This document shows, in pieces, positions 2,987 to 15,146 of a stretch of DNA of 15,196 nucleotides. Each line of letters begins with the position of its first letter. Position 1 is the stretch's first letter. Both the position numbers and the translations under genes were made by a program. The notes below the pieces were generated by a model. It had not been told where the DNA came from, made no database searches, and saw nothing but the letters and a program-made list of their open reading frames with translations. Source of the stretch: Clostridia bacterium (GTDB lineage Bacteria; Bacillota_A; Clostridia; Oscillospirales; CAG-272); assembly GCA_017472105.1 (NCBI GenBank), contig JAFUQY010000453.1, positions 1 through 15,196 of the forward strand, given 5' to 3'.

Positions 2987-3544
2987 TCACAGTAGGATTA
3001 CGCCCAGCACGCCCGACAAAAGAATCAGCATCATCGGCGGCACCTTCCGTGTCAGGCACAGCGCAAAACTTCCGGCGAACAGGAGGATTGCTGTGACATT
3101 GACCCGGGCGGTGCCGATTTCGTTCAGGGAAGGGATCCCGAAAAACGTCAGCAGGGCAACGGTCACAAATGCGGAGAAAATCAGCGCGCAGACTGCCGGA
3201 CGGATGGACGCGAGAACGCTGTCAAATGCAGTGCTCCGGCGGAATTTTTCAAACAGCACGGCAAGTACGGACATCATCACGCACGACGGCAGGATGCATC
3301 CGAGCGTTGCCAGTACCGCACCCGCGATTCCGCCGACGGTGTATCCGGTGAACGATGCGGCGTTGACGGCAATCGGGCCGGGCGTGATTTCGGAGATGGT
3401 AATCAGGTCGGCGAGCGCGTCGTATCCGATCCATCCGTGACGCACCACTGCGGTTTCCTCGATCAAAGGGAGAACTGCGTATCCTCCGCCGAAGCTGAGC
3501 GCGCCGATTTTGCAGAATTCGAGAAACAGAAGCAGGTAATCCAT
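2987..3544 (-). CDS. Chromate transporter (CHR) family subunit, short form, second gene
   Basis: A 185-residue membrane protein of the CHR family (Pfam Chromate_transp), half the size of classic ChrA. The N-terminal signature is clear: LSFGGGYAVLP near residues 17-27, GWIG near 38-41, ITPGPIAVN near 54-62 and the FTGYTVGGIAGA run near 65-76, with about five to six hydrophobic segments in total. Short CHR proteins work in pairs, probably as a hetero-oligomer. The ATG at 3544 is one base past the TGA of the first subunit gene (TGAGATG), with AAGGAGG inside the end of that gene, so coupling is expected. Members export chromate in Bacillus, but physiological substrates in anaerobes are mostly untested, so an oxyanion or other anion is a safer statement. 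Confidence 0.9.
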   Translation of the reverse strand: MDYLLLFLEFCKIGALSFGGGYAVLPLIEETAVVRHGWIGYDALADLITISEITPGPIAVNAASFTGYTVGGIAGAVLATLGCILPSCVMMSVLAVLFEKFRRSTAFDSVLASIRPAVCALIFSAFVTVALLTFFGIPSLNEIGTARVNVTAILLFAGSFALCLTRKVPPMMLILLSGVLGVILL

Positions 3545-3545
3545 C

Positions 3546-4100
3546 TCACGCCTCCTTCTTTGCGGTGAACAGATGCACCAGAACGCCGATGAGACCCGCG
3601 CCGAGGATCACGTACACTGAGCTGACTCCGGTGAAGACGGCGAGAAACAAGGCAAGCGCAAAAATCACGATCCGCATGAACCCTCCCGCGAGGGCTTTTT
3701 TTGTCAGAACCAGCGCCGTATCCAAGAGTACCGCCGCAACGCCCGCCTGCATCCCGGTCATCAGCTTTCCGACGGTTTGGTTTTCGCTCATTCCGCTGTA
3801 CACGGCGGCAATGGCGGACATGATGACGAGCGGCGGCAGAACTGTTCCGATGACGGACAGCGCGGCTCCGGGCAAACCACCCAGACGGTATCCCACCAGA
3901 ATCGACGCGTTTACGGCGGCGGCACCGGGACAGGACTGCGCCAGCGTGGTGATATCGAGCATGTCCTCTTCCGTCAGCCAGCCGAGCTTGACAACGTAAA
4001 TCCGCCGCATGACGGAAATGATGACAAATCCGCCGCCGATCGTGGATGCGGACAGGGCAAGGGATCGCAGAAACAGCGTCAGATACAGGTGTTTTTTCAT
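3546..4100 (-). CDS. Chromate transporter (CHR) family subunit, short form, first gene
   Basis: A 184-residue membrane protein homologous to the gene after it. CHR features are STIGGGFVII near residues 19-28, LGWLTEED near 38-45, QSCPGAAAVNASILVGYRLG around 53-72 and LPPLVIMS around 86-93. The CPGAAAVN string replaces the GPIAVN of the partner, so the two halves are diverged paralogues and not a recent duplication. I place the start at the ATG at 4100, since GGAGAC sits just upstream; an in-frame TTG at 4112 would overlap that ribosome site. The gene is transcribed from a TTTACA-N17-TATAAT promoter (4130-4158) divergent from a LysR regulator, which most likely controls it. Confidence 0.9.
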   Translation of the reverse strand: MKKHLYLTLFLRSLALSASTIGGGFVIISVMRRIYVVKLGWLTEEDMLDITTLAQSCPGAAAVNASILVGYRLGGLPGAALSVIGTVLPPLVIMSAIAAVYSGMSENQTVGKLMTGMQAGVAAVLLDTALVLTKKALAGGFMRIVIFALALFLAVFTGVSSVYVILGAGLIGVLVHLFTAKKEA

Positions 4101-4129
4101 TTTGTCTCCCAATCAATTGTACTGTTTAC

Positions 4130-6134: not shown

Positions 6135-6761
6135 ATGATTTTGATTGAACGCACCTCCGTCATGAATCTGGAGAACGCCATCCGCGGCATGCGCAACCCC
6201 ATGAACGCGTGGGATCGTATCGACAGCCATTATGACTGCGACGGCAACTATATTCTGGGCGAAAACGATCTGACACGTGCGTCCAGTCTGGCAAAAGCCG
6301 GCTCCGACCACCGCAAGTACATGCGCATGATCTTCGTTTCCGTCGACGTGACCGCACCCCTGTACTGGTGGAAGGAATACGACACCTACAAGGTCGGCAC
6401 CGTCGCCAATTCCTGCTCCACGATGCACAAGATTCACGCCAAGGCATTCGGACGCGAGGATTTTTCCTGTGACCGCATGTCCGACAAGGCTCTCGCATGT
6501 CTCGACAATATCATCGAAGTGCTTGAAGAGCAGCGTCAGGCATATCTTGAAACCAAGGACACCGCATACTGGCACGACATGATCCAGCTTCTGCCGTCGT
6601 CCTACAACCAGATGCGCACCTGCACGCTCAATTACGAAAACCTCATCAATATTTATTATGCCCGCCGGAACCACAAGCTCCCTGAATGGCACAGATACTG
6701 CGACTGGATCGAGTCCCTGCCGTACGCGAAGGAGCTGATTACGGGGATCCGCGGTGAATAA
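6135..6761 (+). CDS. ThyX-like protein of unknown function
   Basis: A 208-residue soluble protein, 35 bases after Hsp33, with a good AAGGAG site (6122-6127). I recognise the central pattern, AGSDHRKYMRMI (55-66), APLYWWKEYDTYKVGT (74-89) and ANSCSTMHKI (91-100), and the C-terminal RTCTLNYENLINIYYARRNH (161-180) followed by KLPEW. It belongs to a family common in Clostridia and their phages, usually annotated as hypothetical or as resembling flavin-dependent thymidylate synthase ThyX. The R/H-rich central helix and the C-terminal R-x2-HxLPEW segment sit where ThyX has its substrate-binding parts. The canonical RHRxxSxNxxSxR signature is absent, so ordinary thymidylate synthesis is doubtful. 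Flavin or nucleotide binding is inference. The neighbours do not explain it. Confidence 0.6.
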   Translation: MILIERTSVMNLENAIRGMRNPMNAWDRIDSHYDCDGNYILGENDLTRASSLAKAGSDHRKYMRMIFVSVDVTAPLYWWKEYDTYKVGTVANSCSTMHKIHAKAFGREDFSCDRMSDKALACLDNIIEVLEEQRQAYLETKDTAYWHDMIQLLPSSYNQMRTCTLNYENLINIYYARRNHKLPEWHRYCDWIESLPYAKELITGIRGE

Positions 6762-6774
6762 GTCAGGAGTTAAC

Positions 6775-7935
6775 ATGACCGAAACCCTCAGCCCGGAAAA
6801 GAGAACGCAGATCGGCAGAAACGCGGGAATCGTCGGCATCGGCGTGAATCTGGCACTGTTCGGATTCAAGCTGGCGGCGGGACTTCTCTCGGGAAGCGTA
6901 TCCATCATCGCCGACGCCGTGAACAACCTGACCGACGCGGGATCGTCCATTCTCGTCATGCTCGGGTACATCATTGCGGCAAAACCGGCGGATAAGGAAC
7001 ATCCCTACGGTCACGCACGGATGGAATATCTCTGCGGGCTGTTCATTTCCATCATCGTCACCTTCCTTGGCTTTGAACTGTTCCGATCTTCAGCGGAGTC
7101 CCTTCTGAACACTGCTGAGGCGGCGGAATACAGTCCTCTCGCGATTGTCATCATGGCAGCAGCCGTCATCGCAAAGTTCGGTCTGGCGCTGTACTACCGG
7201 CTGACGGCGAAGAAAATCCACTCCGATTCCCTGAAAGCATCCGCAGCTGACAGCATCTGTGACGTCTGCGCGACGACAGCGGTTCTGATCGGCATTGCAC
7301 TGACGCCCGTTCTCGGACCGAAAACCGACGGCGTCATCGGCTGCATCATCGCCGTTTACATTTTTATCATGGGCGTGAAGCTCATCATCGATTCGTCCAA
7401 CACCCTGCTCGGTCAGGCACCGGACGTGGAGCTGGTGAAAAGCATCGTCGGCAAGCTCAAGTCCTACAACGGCGTGCTCGGCATCCACGATCTGGTCATC
7501 CACAGCTACGGCGTCGATCAGTGCTTCGCATCGGTGCACGTTGAGGTTGACGCGGAAAAAGACGTCCTCGAGAGCCACGACATGATCGACCGGATCGAGG
7601 TTGACATCCGGGAGCAGATGGGGATTGCGCTGGTTGTGCATCTTGACCCGATCACTGTCAACGACCGCCGCGTGGATGAGCTGCACCTTGCGGTTCACGA
7701 AATCATCGACGGACTTGCGGCGCAGTATTCCTCACCCATTTCCATGCACGATTTCCGCACCGTCTTCGGCAAAACGCACACCAATATCATCTTCGACCTC
7801 GCCGTGACCTCGGAATTCCCGCTTGCGAACAACGAGCTGGTCAACACCATCCGCGGAGAAATCGCACAGAAAATCGGCACGGACTACAACGTGGTCATCA
7901 CCATCGACCGGGACTTCATGACAACAAGATATTAA
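6775..7935 (+). CDS. Cation diffusion facilitator (CDF) metal-ion exporter with extra C-terminal domain
   Basis: A 386-residue proton-coupled efflux carrier for divalent metal ions. Six hydrophobic segments lie within about 15-205. The transport site is visible as N50-x3-D54 in ADAVNNLTDA (TM2) and D159-x3-D163 in AADSICDV (TM5). The absence of histidine argues against the HxxxD zinc pattern and favours manganese or iron, though that is inference. HPYGHARMEY (76-85) is the conserved TM2-TM3 loop. The protein is about 80-90 residues longer than a typical 300-residue CDF: a first ferredoxin-like cytosolic domain (about 215-290) is followed by a second, similar-looking region (about 295-386). 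The start is set at the ATG at 6775, with AGGAG at 6765-6769; an in-frame GTG at 6754 would overlap the previous gene. Co-transcription with Hsp33 hints at metal or oxidative stress. Confidence 0.9.
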   Translation: MTETLSPEKRTQIGRNAGIVGIGVNLALFGFKLAAGLLSGSVSIIADAVNNLTDAGSSILVMLGYIIAAKPADKEHPYGHARMEYLCGLFISIIVTFLGFELFRSSAESLLNTAEAAEYSPLAIVIMAAAVIAKFGLALYYRLTAKKIHSDSLKASAADSICDVCATTAVLIGIALTPVLGPKTDGVIGCIIAVYIFIMGVKLIIDSSNTLLGQAPDVELVKSIVGKLKSYNGVLGIHDLVIHSYGVDQCFASVHVEVDAEKDVLESHDMIDRIEVDIREQMGIALVVHLDPITVNDRRVDELHLAVHEIIDGLAAQYSSPISMHDFRTVFGKTHTNIIFDLAVTSEFPLANNELVNTIRGEIAQKIGTDYNVVITIDRDFMTTRY

Positions 7936-7938
7936 CAG

Positions 7939-7985
7939 AAAAAGCACATTGCATCACGATGAATGATACGATGTGCTTTCTTTTT
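7939..7985. terminator. Bidirectional intrinsic terminator between CDF and murE
   Basis: AAAGCACAT (7941-7949) pairs perfectly with ATGTGCTTT (7971-7979). The T-rich tail TTTCTTTTT follows on the plus strand and TTTTTC on the minus strand. The 21-base intervening segment can add a short inner stem (ATCA 7953-7956 with TGAT 7964-7967). It sits between two convergent genes, four bases after the CDF stop and a few bases before the murE stop, so it can serve both. Confidence 0.85.
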
Positions 7986-7989
7986 GTCG

Positions 7990-9480
7990 TTATACGGGCT
8001 GTGCCGCGAGGATTTTTGCCGCTTCGTCGAGGATGATCGCCTTCTCGGAGAAGGGAATCTTTTCACCGGCGACGATCTGGTAAGTTTCGTGACCCTTTCC
8101 GGCGAAGAGAACGATGTCGCCCTCATCCGCAATCCGCACGGTAAAGCGAACCGCTTCTTCACGGTCGGTGATGGTCGTGTAGGGTCTGGACTTGTCGAAA
8201 TATGTGAGAACATCCTCGATGATGACATCCGGGTCCTCGTTGTCCGGGTTGTCCGAGGTGATGACGGTGAAATCCGCCAGTCTGCCGGACGCTTCCGCGA
8301 GCTCCTTCCTACGGATCTGGGTTCTGCCGCCGATGCATCCGAAGACGCAGATGAGCCGCCGCGGGTTATAGGCACGGAGTACCTCGAGCGCGTGGGTAAG
8401 GCTGAATCCGTTGTGCGCATAATCGATGATGAAGGTCACGCCGGAGAGGGCATCGACGATTTCAAACCGGCCGTTGATCGAAATCGTGCGGAGCGCATCG
8501 GATGCCTGACGGACGCTGAGCCCGCAGAGGGAACATACCGCAATCGCTTCGAGTCCGTTGTACACGCTGAATTCTCCGGGCGTGCGCATCCGGATTCCGG
8601 TTTTTACACCGGCGAAGTCCACGTCGAAATCGATGCCGAGGGATGTGCTGTCGCGGTAGGGACGTATGTCGGATGCCTTGAAATCCGCGTCGTTTGCGAT
8701 GGAACAGCTCACGAGATTGGCACCGGAGCCGTCGATCATGTAAGCGTGATTCGCGTCGTCGAGGTTGTAAACGATGTTCTTCGCACCGTACCGCGTGAAC
8801 AGCTTGCGTTTGGCATCGCGGTATTCGTCGAAGGAGTCATGTTCTCCCGCGCCGATGTGGTCTTCCGACAGATTGGTGTAAACCACCGTCTCAAACGTCA
8901 GTCCGCAGACACGGTAGTTGTTCAGCGCCTGCGAGGACACTTCCATCACACAGTGCGTCACGCCGGATTCCACCATCAAGGCGAAATACCGGTGCAGCTC
9001 GCGGCTCTCGGGCGTGGTGTTGACGGTTTCGTAGTGTTTGTCCCCGATGCGGATGCCGTTTGAGCCGATGTAGGCGCAGGGAATGCCGCAGGAGCACAGG
9101 ATTTCGCGGATGAGAATGGCGGTGGTCGTCTTTCCCTTGGTGCCGGTCAGCCCGATCAGAGTCAGTTTGTCTGCCGGACTGCCGTAGAACCGTGCGGACA
9201 GATGTGCCAGCGATTCTCTCGCGTGGGAAACCACAATCTGCACAGCGTCATCCGGCAGATCGAGTTCACGCTCCACGACGAACGCACGGCAGCCCGCTTC
9301 ATAAACGGCAGGAGCGAAATCGTGACCGTCCATGCGCGCACCGGGCATGCAGAAGAACAGTGTTTCCGGGGACTTTGCACGCCGGGAGTCGTATTCGATT
9401 GCATCAACGGCAATACCGGAGGGATCACCGATGACACGGCAGGGATAGTCCGCCAGAAGGGTATTGAGTTTGATAGACAT
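7990..9480 (-). CDS. murE: UDP-MurNAc-tripeptide synthetase (MurE), probably not diaminopimelate-specific
   Basis: MurE adds the third residue to UDP-MurNAc-L-Ala-D-Glu in the cytosol. The 496-residue protein has all three Mur ligase domains: N-terminal UDP binding (1-105), the ATPase core with P-loop GTKGKTTT (113-120), NTTPES (154-159), VMEVSSQAL (178-186), TNLSEDH (202-208) and the lysine to be carbamylated, K224, in RDAKRKLF, then the C-terminal domain with DYAHN (353-357) and GKGHE (461-465). The residue-selecting motif is DNPD (410-413) rather than the DNPR of diaminopimelate-adding enzymes; DYAHNGFSL and TSDNPDNEDP resemble L-Lys-adding types. L-Lys is my preferred reading, unproven. 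It is last of four genes, 12 bases after the racemase, and GGAG lies seven bases before its ATG. Confidence 0.93.
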   Translation of the reverse strand: MSIKLNTLLADYPCRVIGDPSGIAVDAIEYDSRRAKSPETLFFCMPGARMDGHDFAPAVYEAGCRAFVVERELDLPDDAVQIVVSHARESLAHLSARFYGSPADKLTLIGLTGTKGKTTTAILIREILCSCGIPCAYIGSNGIRIGDKHYETVNTTPESRELHRYFALMVESGVTHCVMEVSSQALNNYRVCGLTFETVVYTNLSEDHIGAGEHDSFDEYRDAKRKLFTRYGAKNIVYNLDDANHAYMIDGSGANLVSCSIANDADFKASDIRPYRDSTSLGIDFDVDFAGVKTGIRMRTPGEFSVYNGLEAIAVCSLCGLSVRQASDALRTISINGRFEIVDALSGVTFIIDYAHNGFSLTHALEVLRAYNPRRLICVFGCIGGRTQIRRKELAEASGRLADFTVITSDNPDNEDPDVIIEDVLTYFDKSRPYTTITDREEAVRFTVRIADEGDIVLFAGKGHETYQIVAGEKIPFSEKAIILDEAAKILAAQPV

Positions 9481-9492
9481 AATGATCTCCGA

Positions 9493-10218
9493 TTACGAAA
9501 AACTTGCGGGAAGTCCAACGGTTTCGTGACCCATGAGCCTGATAGAGCACGCGGCGAGGGCCAGAAGGGAATCCACAAACCGCTCGTCGTCAATCTGCTC
9601 GCCGAGGAGGGAGAGCTCCGTGCATCCGAGAATCGCACAGTCACATCCCGCTTCAAACATGGGATCTGACACCTTGTAGAGCTCTTCCGGGGAGGGAATC
9701 ACGCCCTGCTTGACACTGCCGTAGATGATATCCATCAGCTTAGCCTTGCCGTTACCGTCGGGGATCATCCAACCGAGACCGAGCCGTTCCAGTTCTCGCT
9801 GATAGGAACCGGACAGAATCGTGCCCTCCGTAGCGAGAATCGCCGCTTTGCGGAAGCCGCATTTCTGAATATGTGCCGCCGTTTCCGAGATGATGCTCGG
9901 CATGGGAACACTGACGGATTTCTGCACTTCCTCAAGGAAGTAGTGCGCAGTATTGCACGGAATCACGATTGCGGTAGCACCGTAAACCTCGAGGGACTGC
10001 GCATCCGCGATCATGGCGGGGAGGGGCGACTTGTCACTCCGTCCGACAATGAAATCCGTCCGGTCGGGTGTGGAGGCGCGGCTGGATAAAATAATATCGA
10101 TGTGATCCTGATCGCTGGCGGCTTTGGTGTGTCGCGTAATCAGTTCGTAGAAATACGCACTTGCCATAGGTCCGAGACCGCCGATGATGCCGAGAAGCTG
10201 ACGTTTTTTCTCTTCCAT
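9493..10218 (-). CDS. Aspartate/glutamate racemase family protein, probable aspartate racemase
   Basis: A 241-residue cofactor-independent racemase. The N-terminal GIIGGLGPMAS (10-20) is the family signature, and both catalytic cysteines are present: C88 in VIPCNTAHYF and C199 in LGCTELSLL. The GGLGPMAS opening is typical of the aspartate racemase (RacD/YgeA) branch, while glutamate racemase MurI usually opens with D-S-G-x-G-G. It would turn L-Asp into D-Asp in the cytosol. Its place next to a D-aspartate-ligase-like gene makes supply of D-Asp for the crossbridge the likely role, as with Racfm and Aslfm in Enterococcus faecium. The gap to the ligase gene upstream is 19 bases; AGGA lies eight bases before the ATG. 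Confidence 0.9.
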   Translation of the reverse strand: MEEKKRQLLGIIGGLGPMASAYFYELITRHTKAASDQDHIDIILSSRASTPDRTDFIVGRSDKSPLPAMIADAQSLEVYGATAIVIPCNTAHYFLEEVQKSVSVPMPSIISETAAHIQKCGFRKAAILATEGTILSGSYQRELERLGLGWMIPDGNGKAKLMDIIYGSVKQGVIPSPEELYKVSDPMFEAGCDCAILGCTELSLLGEQIDDERFVDSLLALAACSIRLMGHETVGLPASFS

Positions 10219-10237
10219 GTGTTATATCCTGTAAATA

Positions 10238-11473
10238 TTACCGCTGGGGCTTGGGACAGTAAATCTTGTATTTTTTCTTCTGACGGCGGAGCTGTTCGAG
10301 AACGCAGATCGTCCGCAGGGGATTGAATTTCATATCGTGGGGATACCAGACGGAGGAGGATTCCTTGCCCGCCTTTGCGAGTTCCTTCGCGCGGTTGACC
10401 AGTTCGATGTCGTCCGTGTACTCGTATGCGGTGGACTTCGGGATATGGTGCCAGAAAACGGCATTTTCCACGCGTTCGCAGTCATCTCCGTCGGATTCGT
10501 ACACTTCCGCAGCCATTCTTGCGAGATTCATGCCGGCAGCGGTGCAGTAGAAATTGCTTCTGCCCTGTCTGAGGTTGATTTCAAATACGCGGTAGTCGTC
10601 CTTCGTGCCCTTGCGGAGCTTGATATCGAAGTTTGAATAACCGGTATAACCGATATCTTCCAGCAGAGCCTTGATGTTTTCGCAGAGGGGCAGGGAAGAG
10701 ATGGGTTCAGTGATGATGGCGGCATGGTTTCCGAGGCCCTTCGGCGTGTGTTCCTCCAGCATGGTGTGACCGAGACACATTGCGCGGACCTTGCCCTTCG
10801 CATCGGAGAAGCAGGTGAATACGCGCATCTGGGAGTCGCCGCCGTCGATGAATTCCTGAAGAATCATCTTGTCGGGATAGCCGGCATCGTAGATCTGATT
10901 GATGATCTTTTCCGCTTCCTCGGGAGTTTTTGCGACATAGACCTTTTTCATGCCGTCGAACTCATGCTTCCAGTAATCGGCGCTGGAAGAGGGCTTGACG
11001 ATGATGGGGTATTCAAATCCCAGCTTTTCGGGAGCGAGATCGGATACCGGCGCCTTTTTCGTGAGGATTACGGTTTCGGGATAGGGAATGTTGAATTTAT
11101 CGCAGGTTTCGTAGAATTCCGCCTTTTTGGCAACGGTGGTCAGCATTTCTGCGGGCGGATAGGGGATGATGTAGTCGGACAGCTCCGCGCGGTTGCGGAT
11201 GATCATTGCCGCGTAGTCGTCGGTGCATGCAAAGAGAAGGAGCTTGTCTCCGATGTGCGCGTCGGCGAAGCGGTGGAGGGTGTCCAGCATCACTTCGTCC
11301 TTGTCCATATCGGGAATGCTCTTGAATTCAATGAGTTTGGAATATTTGGTCGCAGAGATTGCGTAACGTCCGAAGGCGTAGGATCTGACGCCGTACTGTT
11401 CGTGGAACGCGCGCGCCATGTTATAGCAATTGAGGTCCGCGCCCAGAATTACGGGAGTGATTTGCTTTTCCAT
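10238..11473 (-). CDS. ATP-grasp ligase of the D-aspartate ligase (AslA/Aslfm) type
   Basis: A 411-residue ATP-grasp enzyme. The opening VILGADLNCYNMARAFHEQYG (8-28) resembles the N-terminus of D-aspartate ligases of Lactococcus and Enterococcus, which join D-Asp by its beta-carboxyl to the side-chain amine of L-Lys in the UDP-MurNAc-pentapeptide. ATP-grasp features follow: YPIIVKPSSS (155-164, K160), ILQEFIDGGD (204-213, E207), NFDIKLRKG (281-289, D283) and FEINLRQGRSNFY (297-309, E298 and N300). The N-terminal 110 residues form the pre-grasp domain. The flanking racemase and asparagine synthase give a consistent D-Asp to D-Asn story. Another ATP-grasp amino-acid ligase with a different acceptor remains possible. 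The start is supported by GGAGG seven bases before the ATG. Confidence 0.85.
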   Translation of the reverse strand: MEKQITPVILGADLNCYNMARAFHEQYGVRSYAFGRYAISATKYSKLIEFKSIPDMDKDEVMLDTLHRFADAHIGDKLLLFACTDDYAAMIIRNRAELSDYIIPYPPAEMLTTVAKKAEFYETCDKFNIPYPETVILTKKAPVSDLAPEKLGFEYPIIVKPSSSADYWKHEFDGMKKVYVAKTPEEAEKIINQIYDAGYPDKMILQEFIDGGDSQMRVFTCFSDAKGKVRAMCLGHTMLEEHTPKGLGNHAAIITEPISSLPLCENIKALLEDIGYTGYSNFDIKLRKGTKDDYRVFEINLRQGRSNFYCTAAGMNLARMAAEVYESDGDDCERVENAVFWHHIPKSTAYEYTDDIELVNRAKELAKAGKESSSVWYPHDMKFNPLRTICVLEQLRRQKKKYKIYCPKPQR

Positions 11474-11518
11474 GATGGTCCTCCGATGGTGATTTTATAT
11501 GAAATCTGTGGTTTCGGT

Positions 11519-13360
11519 TCAGCCGATGAACTGCTTGTGCCAGGTCAGGAAGGTGTAAGCCGTCCAGATTTTTCTCTGATTGTTCGCCGTGCCGTTCTTG
11601 TGGGCATCGAGAAGTCCGAGGAGTGCGGTCTGATTGAAATATTCCGCTGCGACATCGGACGCGAATGCTTCCCGGACAATGCCGTAATACTTGTCTTCGC
11701 GGAGCCACTGACGGATCGGAACGGGGAATCCCTTCTTCGGACGGTGTGCCCATTCGTCAGGGAGCGTCTTGTTGGCAGCCGTGCGGAGAACAGCCTTGGT
11801 GTCGCTGCCGTCGATCTTGTAGGAAGCCGGGAGCATCTGCGCCTCCGCCATCACTTCCTTGTCGAGATAGGGAACGCGAAGCTCGAGCGAATGTGCCATC
11901 GACATTTTGTCCGCCTTGAGCAGAATATCGCCGGGCAGCCACAGATTCATGTCGAGGTACTGCTTCTTTTCCAGCTCCGACAGACCCTTCACGCGGTCGT
12001 AAATGGGACGGGTGATGTCGTGTACGGCGGGGCCTTTTTTATACTTCTCATTCAGAATCGCCAGAGCCTCGTTTTCGGGGAATACCAGCGCCTGACCGAT
12101 GAAGTAATCCTCCGGCACGCCGCTGTTCTTGATGATGAAGTCGTGACCCTTGAAATAGGGCAGTCTCTTGGCAACTCCCGCGGCACCGCGTCTGAGGAAA
12201 CCGGGGATTTTCTTGTATTTTGCTGCCAGTCCGCGTTCATCGTACCATTCGTAGCCCGCCCAGATTTCGTCCGCACCTTCGCCGGAGAGCACAACGGTGA
12301 CATGTTCCGCCGCCAGCTTGGAGAGGAAGTACAGCGGCACGGAGGACGGATTGGACTGCGGCTCGTCCATGTGGTACTGGATGGCTGCAAACGCGTCAAA
12401 GCATTCCTCGGCAGTCAGATGCTTGAGGAAATTCTGCACGCCGAGACGTTCGGAAAGCTCCTTCGCTTCGCTGGTCTCGTCGAATTTTTCGTAATTGAAG
12501 CCCACGGAGAAGGTGTCGTTGGGCATGAGGGTCGCAGTGATGTAGGAGGACTCCACGCCGCCGGACAGGAAGGAGCCGACCTTCACGTCGCTGATGCGGT
12601 GAGCGGCAACGGATTCGTGCACACGCGCGTCAATCTGATCCGCCGCTTCCTGATAGGAGAGGGAAGTCTTCTTCGAGAAATCCACGTCCCAGTAGCGGGT
12701 CTTCGTGAGTTTTCCGTTTTCCCATGTGAACCAGTGCGCCTGCGGGAGCTTGAAGGTATTCCTGAAGAAGGTCTCTTCCATCGACGAATACTGGAAGGTC
12801 AGGTAGGGACGGAGCGCGTTTTCGTTCACTTCCGGCTTGAATTCGGGATGCTCAAGGAAGGATTTGATCTCCGAGCCGAAAATCAGGTGACCGCTTGGCG
12901 TAATCGTGTAGTAGAACGGCTTGATGCCGAAGGGATCGCGAGCACCGTAAAGGGTGTTTTTCTTCGTGTCGCAGATGACGAACGCGAACATGCCGCGGAG
13001 TTTCGATGCAAGATCGGTGCCCCATTCCTCATAGCCGTGGATGAGGGGTTCAGTGTCGCATCTGGTTTTGAACACGTGTCCCTTTGCGATCAGCTCGTCG
13101 CGGAGCTGCATGAAGTTGTAGACCTCGCCGTTGTACACGATGACAACACTGCCGTCTTCGTTGTACATGGGCTGGGAGCCGTCGGATAAGTCGATGATGG
13201 AAAGTCTGCGGAAGCCGAGCGTCACAGCGGTCGCGTCATTTTCTCCGCTCAGATGGAATCCGCCGGAGTCGGGACCGCGATGGATGATCCGGTTCGCCAT
13301 TGCTTCGATAACCTGCTGACGCCGGTCGATGATGCCGGTAAAGCCGATAAAGCCGCACAT
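11519..13360 (-). CDS. asnB: Glutamine-dependent asparagine synthase (AsnB family), probable crossbridge D-Asp amidator
   Basis: A 613-residue two-domain enzyme. The N-terminal class II glutaminase begins with the required C2 (MCGFIG), followed by HRGPDSGG (27-34), FRRLSIIDL (50-58) and YNGEVYN (76-82). The C-terminal synthetase domain has the PP-loop SGGVESS (266-272), MDEPQSNPS (331-339) and LSGEGADEIWAGY (358-370). It uses glutamine and ATP to turn an aspartyl carboxylate into an amide. The usual PP-loop is SGGxDS; here codon 12553-12551 is GAG, so Asp is Glu (E270). Being first in an operon with a D-Asp ligase, racemase and murE, it resembles AsnH of Lactococcus lactis, which amidates D-Asp of the crossbridge. 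Free asparagine synthesis is the alternative. AAAGGA lies about nine bases before the ATG. Confidence 0.93.
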   Translation of the reverse strand: MCGFIGFTGIIDRRQQVIEAMANRIIHRGPDSGGFHLSGENDATAVTLGFRRLSIIDLSDGSQPMYNEDGSVVIVYNGEVYNFMQLRDELIAKGHVFKTRCDTEPLIHGYEEWGTDLASKLRGMFAFVICDTKKNTLYGARDPFGIKPFYYTITPSGHLIFGSEIKSFLEHPEFKPEVNENALRPYLTFQYSSMEETFFRNTFKLPQAHWFTWENGKLTKTRYWDVDFSKKTSLSYQEAADQIDARVHESVAAHRISDVKVGSFLSGGVESSYITATLMPNDTFSVGFNYEKFDETSEAKELSERLGVQNFLKHLTAEECFDAFAAIQYHMDEPQSNPSSVPLYFLSKLAAEHVTVVLSGEGADEIWAGYEWYDERGLAAKYKKIPGFLRRGAAGVAKRLPYFKGHDFIIKNSGVPEDYFIGQALVFPENEALAILNEKYKKGPAVHDITRPIYDRVKGLSELEKKQYLDMNLWLPGDILLKADKMSMAHSLELRVPYLDKEVMAEAQMLPASYKIDGSDTKAVLRTAANKTLPDEWAHRPKKGFPVPIRQWLREDKYYGIVREAFASDVAAEYFNQTALLGLLDAHKNGTANNQRKIWTAYTFLTWHKQFIG

Positions 13361-13403
13361 ATGATAAAGTCCTTTCGGATGATACTCAAAACTGTTTCAT
13401 TAT

Positions 13404-13412
13404 ATTATATCA
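13404..13412 (-). promoter_or_regulatory. Extended -10 promoter for the asparagine synthase-murE operon
   Basis: The minus strand reads TGATATAAT here, a perfect TATAAT with the extended TGn. The region at -35 (13427-13432, TTTATT) is weak. Transcription would start near 13397, giving a leader of about 37 bases before the ATG at 13360. The rest of 13361-13536 is AT-rich and shows no riboswitch, T-box or other gene. Confidence 0.6.
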
Positions 13413-13497
13413 CAAATTTTTCCGTAAATAAATATATAATGTAAGAATTTTTCAGATTCCGTATGTTTTCCTGCCTGTGTAACCTGCCCGATAACGC

Positions 13498-13536: not shown

Positions 13537-14043
13537 TTACAGTTCAATCCAATACCGCCGGATTGCGGTGCCGTCTTCGATGACCTCGTTTTCCAGCACA
13601 CCGCCGTTTTTCTCAATGGATCTTGCCGAGCCGCTGTTGTCCGCATTGCAGCACATCAGCACCCGCGTGATTCCGAGCTTCCGGCATTCTTCCAGCGCCA
13701 GTGCGATCATTGCCGTGGCATAGACCTTCTTCCGTTCGCTTGGTCTGACGCCGTCTCCGATGTGACCGCCGGAGAAGAGCAGGGATTCGCTCAGAGTATG
13801 CCGGATATTCACCGCACCGACGAAGCGGTTGGTCTCCGTTTCCAGTCCGAAGAACGTGGAGTCGGGAACCATGCCGTCCTTCGGTTCACTCAGCTCGAGC
13901 TCGGCGAGGTAGTGACCGAAATTCCGATAATCGTTTTTCCGGATGGAGTAGGGAATGATCTTCTCGCCCGACGCCGTCCATTCGTCCATCATGTCATTGA
14001 GCTGATCCCGGTAGTCCTCCGTCAGTTTAACGAGCTTCAGCAT
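13537..14043 (-). CDS. GNAT family acetyltransferase, COG3981-like, with altered acetyl-CoA loop
   Basis: A 168-residue single-domain GNAT protein resembling the COG3981 predicted acetyltransferases (MLKLVKLTEDYRDQ opening, GHIGDGVRPSER near 91-102). The acetyl-CoA pyrophosphate loop normally reads R-x2-G-x-A; here it is RKKVYA with valine at position 107 (codon GTC, 13725-13723), a single-base change from glycine. The rest of the fold looks intact, including CCNADNSGSARSIEKNGGV near the C-terminus. The ATG at 14043 gives a ribosome site (GGAGG, 10 bases upstream); an ATG at 14052 would touch it. The start overlaps the end of the double-GNAT gene by seven bases, so translation is coupled. Substrate is unknown. 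Confidence 0.87.
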   Translation of the reverse strand: MLKLVKLTEDYRDQLNDMMDEWTASGEKIIPYSIRKNDYRNFGHYLAELELSEPKDGMVPDSTFFGLETETNRFVGAVNIRHTLSESLLFSGGHIGDGVRPSERKKVYATAMIALALEECRKLGITRVLMCCNADNSGSARSIEKNGGVLENEVIEDGTAIRRYWIEL

Positions 14044-15146
14044 TCTTCCCATTCCTCCCGCAGAATTGCGTAAACGTACTCGTCATGCCCGTTCGGACGA
14101 ACCTTGCGGAATACGGCTTCGCGGGTCATGCCGATTTTCTCCATCACGCGCCATGAGCCGTAGTTTTCGGCGTCGCACCGTGCGAAAATGCGGTTGAAAT
14201 CGGAATGTTCGAAAACATGGTCAATCATTGCCAGTGCCGCTTCAGCCGCGTAGCCCTTCTTCCAGTGCGCCTTCGCAAGAACCCAGCCAAGCTCGACGCC
14301 GCCTTCCTCAATGCAGAAATCGCACGCGCCGATCAGCTCGCCCGATTCTTTCAGAATGATTCCGAATTCATGGTCCTTCTGCGGCCAAAGTGCCCACATC
14401 CGTTCGCAGTCCAGAAGGTAATTCTCCGTTTCGCGCAGTGTTTTGAAACCGCCGAAAAACATGTGCTGAGTCACTTCGGGATCCCCAGCGAATTTGTGCG
14501 CCGCCTGTGCATCATAAGCCGTGACAGGACGAAGAATCAGCCGCTCGGTTTCAAGAATGAGCTTCCGGGGATGCTTCCGTCTCTCCCATTCTTTCCGGAT
14601 CAGGGAATTGACTGCGATATTGTGATACTTTCCGTTGAAGAGCTGACAGTCAGGAAGATTCCAGCCGGAACGCTCAATCCCCTCGAACGTAAACCCGGAT
14701 TTGCGTGCAACTCTGCCGGACGCCGGATTCATAACCGCATGACGGATCACGAGCCGGTTTGCGCCGACCTCGGTGAAGAGATAGTCCGAGACGGCGCATA
14801 CTGCCTCCGTCATCAGACCCATTTTCCACCAGCTTTTTCCCATGCAGTATCCAAATTCCATGAGTTCGTTCCGGTCGGACTGACGTACAATCGAAACATT
14901 CCCGATCGGCACGCCGTCCAGTGTCATAACCCAGTTGTAGTACGCCGGATTATCGTAATTTGTGACCCAGTTTTCGAGCAGTGTGCGCGTTTCTGTGGCG
15001 GATTTGTGCGGCTGCCACGTGAGAAACCGGGTTACCTCCGCATCCGTTGCCCAGTTATCATACATCGCCTGCGCGTCGTCAGCGGTGAACTGCCGCAGAA
15101 CCAGACGCTCTGTCTGAATTGTCTTCGTACCCTTGTGATTCAGCAT
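14037..15146 (-). CDS. Tandem GNAT fusion: two RimJ/RimL-type acetyltransferase domains
   Basis: A 369-residue protein made of two GNAT domains of the RimJ/RimL/Acetyltransf_3 type. Domain 1 (about 8-185) starts TIQTERLVLRQF and has the acetyl-CoA loop WWKMGLMTEAV (106-116) and NPASGRVARKSGF (140-152). Domain 2 (about 196-369) starts LILETERLILRPV and has HWKKGYAAEA (294-303) and NYGSWRVMEKIGM (328-340). Both loops keep the glycine, so both could be active. Such enzymes acetylate N-termini of proteins or small amines; neither target can be read here. Single-domain members are about 180 residues, so this is a clear fusion or tandem duplication. AGAAGG lies six bases before the ATG. Confidence 0.9.
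   Translation of the reverse strand: MLNHKGTKTIQTERLVLRQFTADDAQAMYDNWATDAEVTRFLTWQPHKSATETRTLLENWVTNYDNPAYYNWVMTLDGVPIGNVSIVRQSDRNELMEFGYCMGKSWWKMGLMTEAVCAVSDYLFTEVGANRLVIRHAVMNPASGRVARKSGFTFEGIERSGWNLPDCQLFNGKYHNIAVNSLIRKEWERRKHPRKLILETERLILRPVTAYDAQAAHKFAGDPEVTQHMFFGGFKTLRETENYLLDCERMWALWPQKDHEFGIILKESGELIGACDFCIEEGGVELGWVLAKAHWKKGYAAEAALAMIDHVFEHSDFNRIFARCDAENYGSWRVMEKIGMTREAVFRKVRPNGHDEYVYAILREEWEEC

Follow-up and report, generated by a model that had tools for sequence, protein, structure and literature searches.

D-aspartate (D-Asp) bridges occur in most lactobacilli, and in Lactococcus lactis the bridge depends on the ligase AslA, the racemase RacD and AsnH, which amidates D-Asp after its ligation (according to excerpts of PMC4155827). 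The systems of L. lactis and Enterococcus faecium build a crossbridge of D-Asp or D-asparagine (D-Asn) on L-lysine (L-Lys). We analyzed a 15,196-nt stretch of DNA from a Clostridia bacterium (contig JAFUQY010000453.1; hereafter, the window), in which four genes predicted to encode an asparagine synthase (asnB), a D-aspartate-ligase-type ATP-grasp enzyme (Asl), an aspartate-racemase-type enzyme and a MurE ligase (MurE2) are arranged as an operon. We give a slightly better than even chance to the reading that a large family of gut Clostridia uses two peptidoglycan chemistries and two MurE enzymes, that the spore MurE was lost repeatedly together with sporulation, and that MurE content predicts sporulation and wall type.

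A single scan of genome contigs yielded 17 loci from metagenome-assembled genomes (MAGs) titled Clostridia, Oscillospiraceae or uncultured Ruminococcus, with ligases 72–93% identical to that of the window. The four genes occurred in the same order in 14 of these loci, some of which ended at a contig edge; thus, the arrangement is not due to chance, and the module proposed by the initial annotation recurs among relatives. The exceptions were a locus without asnB in the 1.1 kb before the ligase gene (L018), one with murE on a separate contig (L019) and a truncated one (L021).

All 17 genomes carried a second MurE (MurE1), 33–38% identical to MurE2. It was adjoined by murF in every case and, on its other side, by the penicillin-binding protein (PBP) gene of the division and cell wall (dcw) cluster in 14; the remaining three stretches ended earlier. 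The order rsmH-PBP-murE-murF-mraY-ftsW-murG was found in all eight of the larger dcw regions. MurE1 had the motif DNPR in 16 relatives and DNAR in one, and MurE2 had DNPD in 15 and DNPN in two; DNPR is likewise absent from the window MurE, which reads DNPD. The initial annotation had taken the operon MurE to fix the acceptor residue and had proposed to check for another murE. Because a dcw MurE stands alongside in all 17 relatives, the operon enzyme probably does not set this residue for all peptidoglycan; its apparent suitability for a residue other than diaminopimelate is supported by the comparisons that follow. MurE1 and sporulation in the window genome itself are inferred from the relative G001, whose ligase, racemase and MurE are 88–93% identical to those of the window.

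The operon MurE scored well above the TIGR01085 cut-off (394.2 vs. 257.3 bits), contained the three Mur domains (Pfam) and the Walker motif GTKGKTTT, and had the diaminopimelate ligase model NF001126 as its best NCBIfam equivalog. Among the 120 homologues of the window MurE that were listed, 98 read DNPD and 22 DNPN, all with the P-loop GTKGKT; DNPG was also found among more distant MurE2 of the family. In Escherichia coli MurE, Arg-416 of DNPR binds the carboxylate of diaminopimelate, and the Lys-adding MurE of Staphylococcus aureus, whose overexpression in E. coli is reported to cause lysis, has DNPA (all from the accessible part of PMC3829189). The corresponding motif is DDPA in the E. faecalis enzyme, annotated in its record as Lys-adding, and DDPG in the MurE of L. 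curvatus. MurE2 keeps the acidic D and E positions of the pocket and has lost the Arg, but it retains GKGHE. A MurE tree separated the dcw group from MurE2 and the Lys-type enzymes (support 100/98), with a long-branched Planococcus plasmid MurE landing on the dcw side; the grouping of MurE2 with the Lys-type enzymes was weakly supported (90/30). The loss of the Arg makes MurE2 a candidate for a non-diaminopimelate acceptor. All eight names shown among the 120 listed MurE2 homologues were 2,6-diaminopimelate ligase, which is probably wrong. In G150 (L101, G150:C92), two MurE2-like genes shared a contig and the P-loop GTKGKT, one reading DNPR and the other DDPE; this pair is a possible specificity switch. 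No account of a dual MurE was found in the available parts of PMC9781867, PMC6955911, PMC4015370 and PMC3533761.

The presence of MurE1 was compared with that of sporulation genes. Among 40 relatives of G001, MurE2 was found in 24, of which G019, G023 and G024 had no second MurE. All three were without SpoIVA, vs. one (G025) of the other 21 (Fisher test, P = 0.002). The sample was then 196 genomes from the family of G001. MurE2-level matches were those at E 1e-85 or better, a manually chosen cut-off; Asl was scored at E 1e-30, and the number of MurE was taken as the number of matches at E 1e-20, only part of these sequences having been read. A MurE2-level match was present in 122 genomes, 12 of which had a single MurE match; G084, in which a contig end interrupts MurE2, fell under the cut-off. 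Since SpoIVA was missing in 10 of the 110 two-MurE genomes, nine of them with SpoIIIAE, the latter was added as a marker, and both were used as sporulation markers. The dcw gene mraY was unusable (no match or weaker than E 1e-30) in seven of the 196 genomes and usable in 117 of the 122 with MurE2.

With mraY present, both markers were absent from all nine MurE2-only genomes vs. one (G069) of 108 two-MurE genomes (Fisher test, P = 1.2e-12, kinship ignored). Excluding G045, G158 and G058, in which the mraY match was weak, gave seven of seven vs. one of 107 (P = 1.9e-10), and a crude collapse of kin to one genome per apparent lineage gave four of four (P = 8e-7). Where mraY was usable and at least one marker was present, every MurE2-level genome (107 in number) had two or more MurE matches.

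In all six MurE2-only genomes in which the dcw cluster was read through, no murE lay between the PBP gene and murF (mraY in G134) on a single contig. These six clusters represent approximately four lineages (G019; G060 and G165; G126 and G211; G134). In these six genomes, the lack of MurE1 cannot be put down to missing sequence, since each has its dcw cluster unbroken on a single contig. Of the others, G023 has a contig ending in murF, G024 had no murF match, and the clusters of G041, G045, G065 and G158 were not fetched. In a MurE2 tree of 42 rows, the state without MurE1 required four changes (four to five in bootstrap trees), two of which were forced by well-supported branches; G041, G044, G045, G134 and G158 had long branches. 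The MurE2-only genomes with an intact dcw cluster indicate that MurE2 can apparently serve as the sole MurE, its predicted enzymatic activity being taken from sequence, and that MurE1 is kept with sporulation.

The ATP-grasp protein had no match to a Pfam family and no PDB sequence match at E 0.001. Its AlphaFold2 model (mean predicted local distance difference test score, 76.7; predicted TM-score, 0.77) matched ATP-grasp structures, with 473 structure matches in the PDB reaching E 0.001; all of the 50 matches listed are ATP-grasp enzymes, e.g., GAR synthetase, L-amino acid ligase (3vot) and PylC. A tblastn search of a plasmid collection gave 56 records, of which four covered at least 80% of the query: Subdoligranulum (51% identity, 419 bits), Lactobacillus crispatus (34%, 247 bits), Latilactobacillus curvatus (33%, 236 bits) and Limosilactobacillus fermentum (33%, 227 bits). 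We take the last three to be species with D-Asp bridges. Their ligase genes were 33–34% identical across 93–99% of the length (34–36% in an alignment of 20 sequences), and the remaining 16 records among the matches listed scored at most 77 bits. By these bit scores, a measure of sequence similarity and not a ligase tree, the protein falls with the D-Asp ligases and not outside them, which supports the predicted assignment as a D-aspartate-ligase-type enzyme made by the initial annotation.

Gene neighborhoods and names point the same way. The L. crispatus ligase gene follows an asnB, to which the window asnB is 46% identical; the L. curvatus gene follows an amino acid racemase, that of L. fermentum adjoins neither, and in Subdoligranulum the ligase is followed by a racemase and asnB. 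Of 120 relatives listed for the L. crispatus protein, five are named D-aspartate ligase and most others carboxylate--amine ligase. In the window, the ligase adjoins the aspartate-racemase-type enzyme, for which the best PDB match among racemases, 1jfl, acts on aspartate; both of its catalytic cysteines, as initially annotated, lie in motifs (PCNTAH and GCTE) that align to 1jfl. No racemase was found in the operon stretch read for G126, G211, G065 and G130. The asparagine synthase is predicted to amidate the D-Asp branch.

In the family sample, an Asl match was found in 102 of the 196 genomes. Of the 81 genomes with the strongest Asl matches, 76 were also MurE2-level, with the ligase and MurE2 genes at most 4 kb apart in 73 of them. 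This spread suggests that the four-gene module, which looks like an old and widespread family trait, was inherited within the lineage rather than imported recently. One of the origins considered at first, a recent transfer from Lactobacillales, is excluded by the wide presence in the family and by ligase identities of 33–36% to lactobacilli, vs. 72–93% to other Clostridia and 51% to Subdoligranulum. No account of the arrangement in Clostridia was recognized among titles and abstract beginnings in the open-licence literature.

In other genomes, MurE2 was found without an Asl match at L096, L097, L098, L103 and L112, with an adjoining racemase in L097 and L103. Subdoligranulum variabile (L001 and L066) has the ligase, racemase and asnB without an operon MurE, and its dcw MurE reads DNPR; in the records searched, possibly a partial genome, the sole further Mur-ligase match was partial (27%). 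Possibly, D-Asp is placed on a diaminopimelate stem in this species, or a MurE2 lies in unsampled sequence. Cases of MurE2 without Asl, Asl without MurE2 and Subdoligranulum narrow the scope for saying that these four genes invariably cooperate.

On balance we regard as fairly probable an explanation in which the operon provides a vegetative wall of L-Lys (or ornithine, Orn) and D-Asp/D-Asn and the dcw MurE1 a diaminopimelate spore wall. MurE2 would set vegetative residue 3 as L-Lys or Orn, the racemase would provide D-Asp, the ATP-grasp ligase would join the beta-carboxyl of D-Asp to the side-chain amine of residue 3, and the asparagine synthase would amidate the ligated D-Asp. MurE1 (DNPR) would make meso-diaminopimelate precursors for spore peptidoglycan and would be discarded once sporulation is lost. 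Residue 3, the attachment and amidation of D-Asp, and the use of MurE1 in spores are our inferences. The reverse assignment, with MurE2 acting for spores, is rejected because genomes without sporulation markers keep MurE2.

Several observations weigh against this explanation. The MurE2-only genomes G162, G205 and G215 have SpoIVA, without SpoIIIAE, so that SpoIVA is absent from nine of 12 MurE2-only vs. 10 of 110 two-MurE genomes when all MurE2-level genomes are counted. Their mraY matches were at E 4e-23, none and 8e-19, respectively; without a usable mraY, the dcw contig is probably missing, and murE1 may be unassembled. G025 is without SpoIVA yet keeps MurE1, G069 has neither marker and two MurE matches, and the mraY matches of the MurE2-only G045 (E 8e-53) and G158 (8e-48) are weak. 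Gaps in MAGs and kinship inflate the sporulation statistics. At least one of the genomes counted as MurE2, G075, has DNPR and GTAGKT and looks like a MurE1 case. Like the diaminopimelate enzymes, MurE2 has GKGHE, where the E. faecalis enzyme has GKGAD, and the motif alone does not determine MurE specificity (a warning in the part of PMC3829189 available); for both reasons, the third residue set by MurE2 stays a prediction. Of the 122 MurE2-level genomes, 45 had no Asl match, so the link between MurE2 and a D-Asp bridge is not strict, and G177, G181, G182 and G189 had strong Asl without a MurE2-level match. The diaminopimelate pathway, which the initial annotation proposed to check, gave a divided picture in the relatives: DapF and Ddh were both absent from two of the nine MurE2-only genomes with mraY vs. 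10 of 187 other genomes (P = 0.10), and the other seven kept DapF and/or Ddh.

That retention of DapF and/or Ddh would be expected if MurE2 still added meso-diaminopimelate, with the ligase placing D-Asp on the diaminopimelate amine or elsewhere and the asparagine synthase amidating diaminopimelate, as does AsnB1 of L. plantarum. The conserved GKGHE, the match to NF001126 and the situation in Subdoligranulum, where a dcw MurE reading DNPR accompanies the ligase, racemase and asnB, fit this possibility as well. It is improbable in our estimation, given that all 120 listed homologues have D or N in place of the carboxylate-binding Arg and that two MurE with differing motifs are maintained together. 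Alternatively, both MurE could act in growing cells, giving a mixed or condition-switched wall, with MurE1 tending to vanish in streamlined asporogenous lineages. Gene presence cannot reveal expression, and loss of MurE1 speaks for its dispensability rather than for a spore-specific use; however, its retention tracks sporulation closely, down to the last of the 107 marker-bearing genomes, and we hold this alternative to be unlikely.

The bridge residue could also be another D-dicarboxylate, such as D-glutamate (D-Glu), or the operon could yield a small peptide metabolite and no wall component. ATP-grasp ligases do form D-Glu cross-links (accessible portion of PMC2922099), and TIGR00035 does not discriminate between substrates. 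The same operon, however, holds an asparagine synthase and a MurE that in some genomes stands alone, with no other MurE match, the nearest PDB racemase acts on aspartate, and some lactobacillar relatives of the ligase bear the name D-aspartate ligase, which makes this alternative very unlikely.

A separate observation concerns DapF. At L119 (G049:C1:332000-338500), positions 1-2727 encode carbamoyl-phosphate synthase (CPSase) domains, MGS and then DapF (Pfam), a fusion protein in which the large chain of carbamoyl-phosphate synthase carries diaminopimelate epimerase at its C-terminus. The DapF match lay inside an open frame of more than 1000 amino acids (aa) in at least 52 of 108 DapF-matching genomes (hand count of the rows listed, one of which was scanned with Pfam).

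The features of the operon are given in the table. When the coordinates were re-derived, the four genes lay on one strand with intergenic gaps of 45, 19 and 12 bases from asnB to murE, exactly as initially annotated. The transcript borders claimed at that stage fared unequally: none of 200 shuffles folded as well as the hairpin after murE, which makes for a strong terminator candidate, and the promoter is a mere consensus match, in a region with eight promoter-like sites vs. 3.9 ± 2.2 expected.

Table. Features of the four-gene operon in the window
Feature	Position	Strand	Description
asnB/asnH-like asparagine synthase	11519..13360	-	613 aa; TIGR01536 514.6 bits; Pfam Asn_synthase and GATase_7
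D-aspartate-ligase-type ATP-grasp enzyme (predicted)	10238..11473	-	411 aa; lactobacillar homology, modelled fold
Aspartate-racemase-type enzyme	9493..10218	-	241 aa; TIGR00035 210.5 bits; PDB 1jfl E 9.1e-47
murE (MurE2)	7990..9480	-	496 aa; TIGR01085 394.2 bits; motif DNPD; P-loop GTKGKT
Intrinsic-terminator-like hairpin after murE	7936..7989	-	-22.6 kcal/mol; z -6.3
Promoter-like site TTTACG-18-TATAAT	13399..13428	-	consensus match only

A cation-efflux gene (6754-7935, plus strand) converges on the operon from its 3' side. Upstream of the operon lies a GNAT gene (13537-14052), to which a terminator-like site at 13531-13502 belongs; sites of this type were no more common than in shuffles (6 vs. 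6.5). Adjoining the GNAT gene, positions 14037-15146 (minus strand) encode a protein with two GNAT-domain stretches. Elsewhere in the window, two short neighboring genes (185 and 188 aa) occupy 2987-4112 on the minus strand, and 3546-4112 matched chromate-efflux models with scores under the cut-offs.

If the two-wall explanation is true, the chemistry of residue 3 would be divided between vegetative and spore walls across a large clade of gut Clostridia, and MurE content would be a marker of wall type readable from genomes. Recognition by lysozyme, NOD1 and phage endolysins could be affected, and comparative genomics could address why spore and vegetative walls may differ.

Among known enzymes, MurE2 resembles the Lys-type MurE of S. 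aureus (as far as covered by the part of PMC3829189 seen) and of E. faecalis in the replacement of the Arg of DNPR, and that of E. faecalis also in its P-loop GTKGKT; unlike them it keeps GKGHE, and its placement as their sister is not firm. The operon as a whole is predicted to hold the same three activities as Aslfm/Racfm of E. faecium and AslA/RacD/AsnH of L. lactis, a likeness that rests on lactobacillar members 33–36% identical over nearly the full length. It differs from both systems in having a dedicated MurE as a fourth gene and in the DNPR-type MurE that its relatives keep. Lysinibacillus (Bacillus) sphaericus reportedly combines a Lys-D-Asp vegetative wall with a diaminopimelate cortex and two residue-3 ligases, as is said to have been described by Tipper and Linnett in the 1970s (unconfirmed in our literature search). 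This system shares with ours the two MurE types, the D-Asp bridge and the coupling to sporulation, a likeness by description and not by gene comparison; it belongs to Bacilli and not Clostridia, and the window MurE2 differs in sharing an operon with the bridge enzymes. A further difference is the absence of MurE1, observed here, from relatives of the window without sporulation markers.

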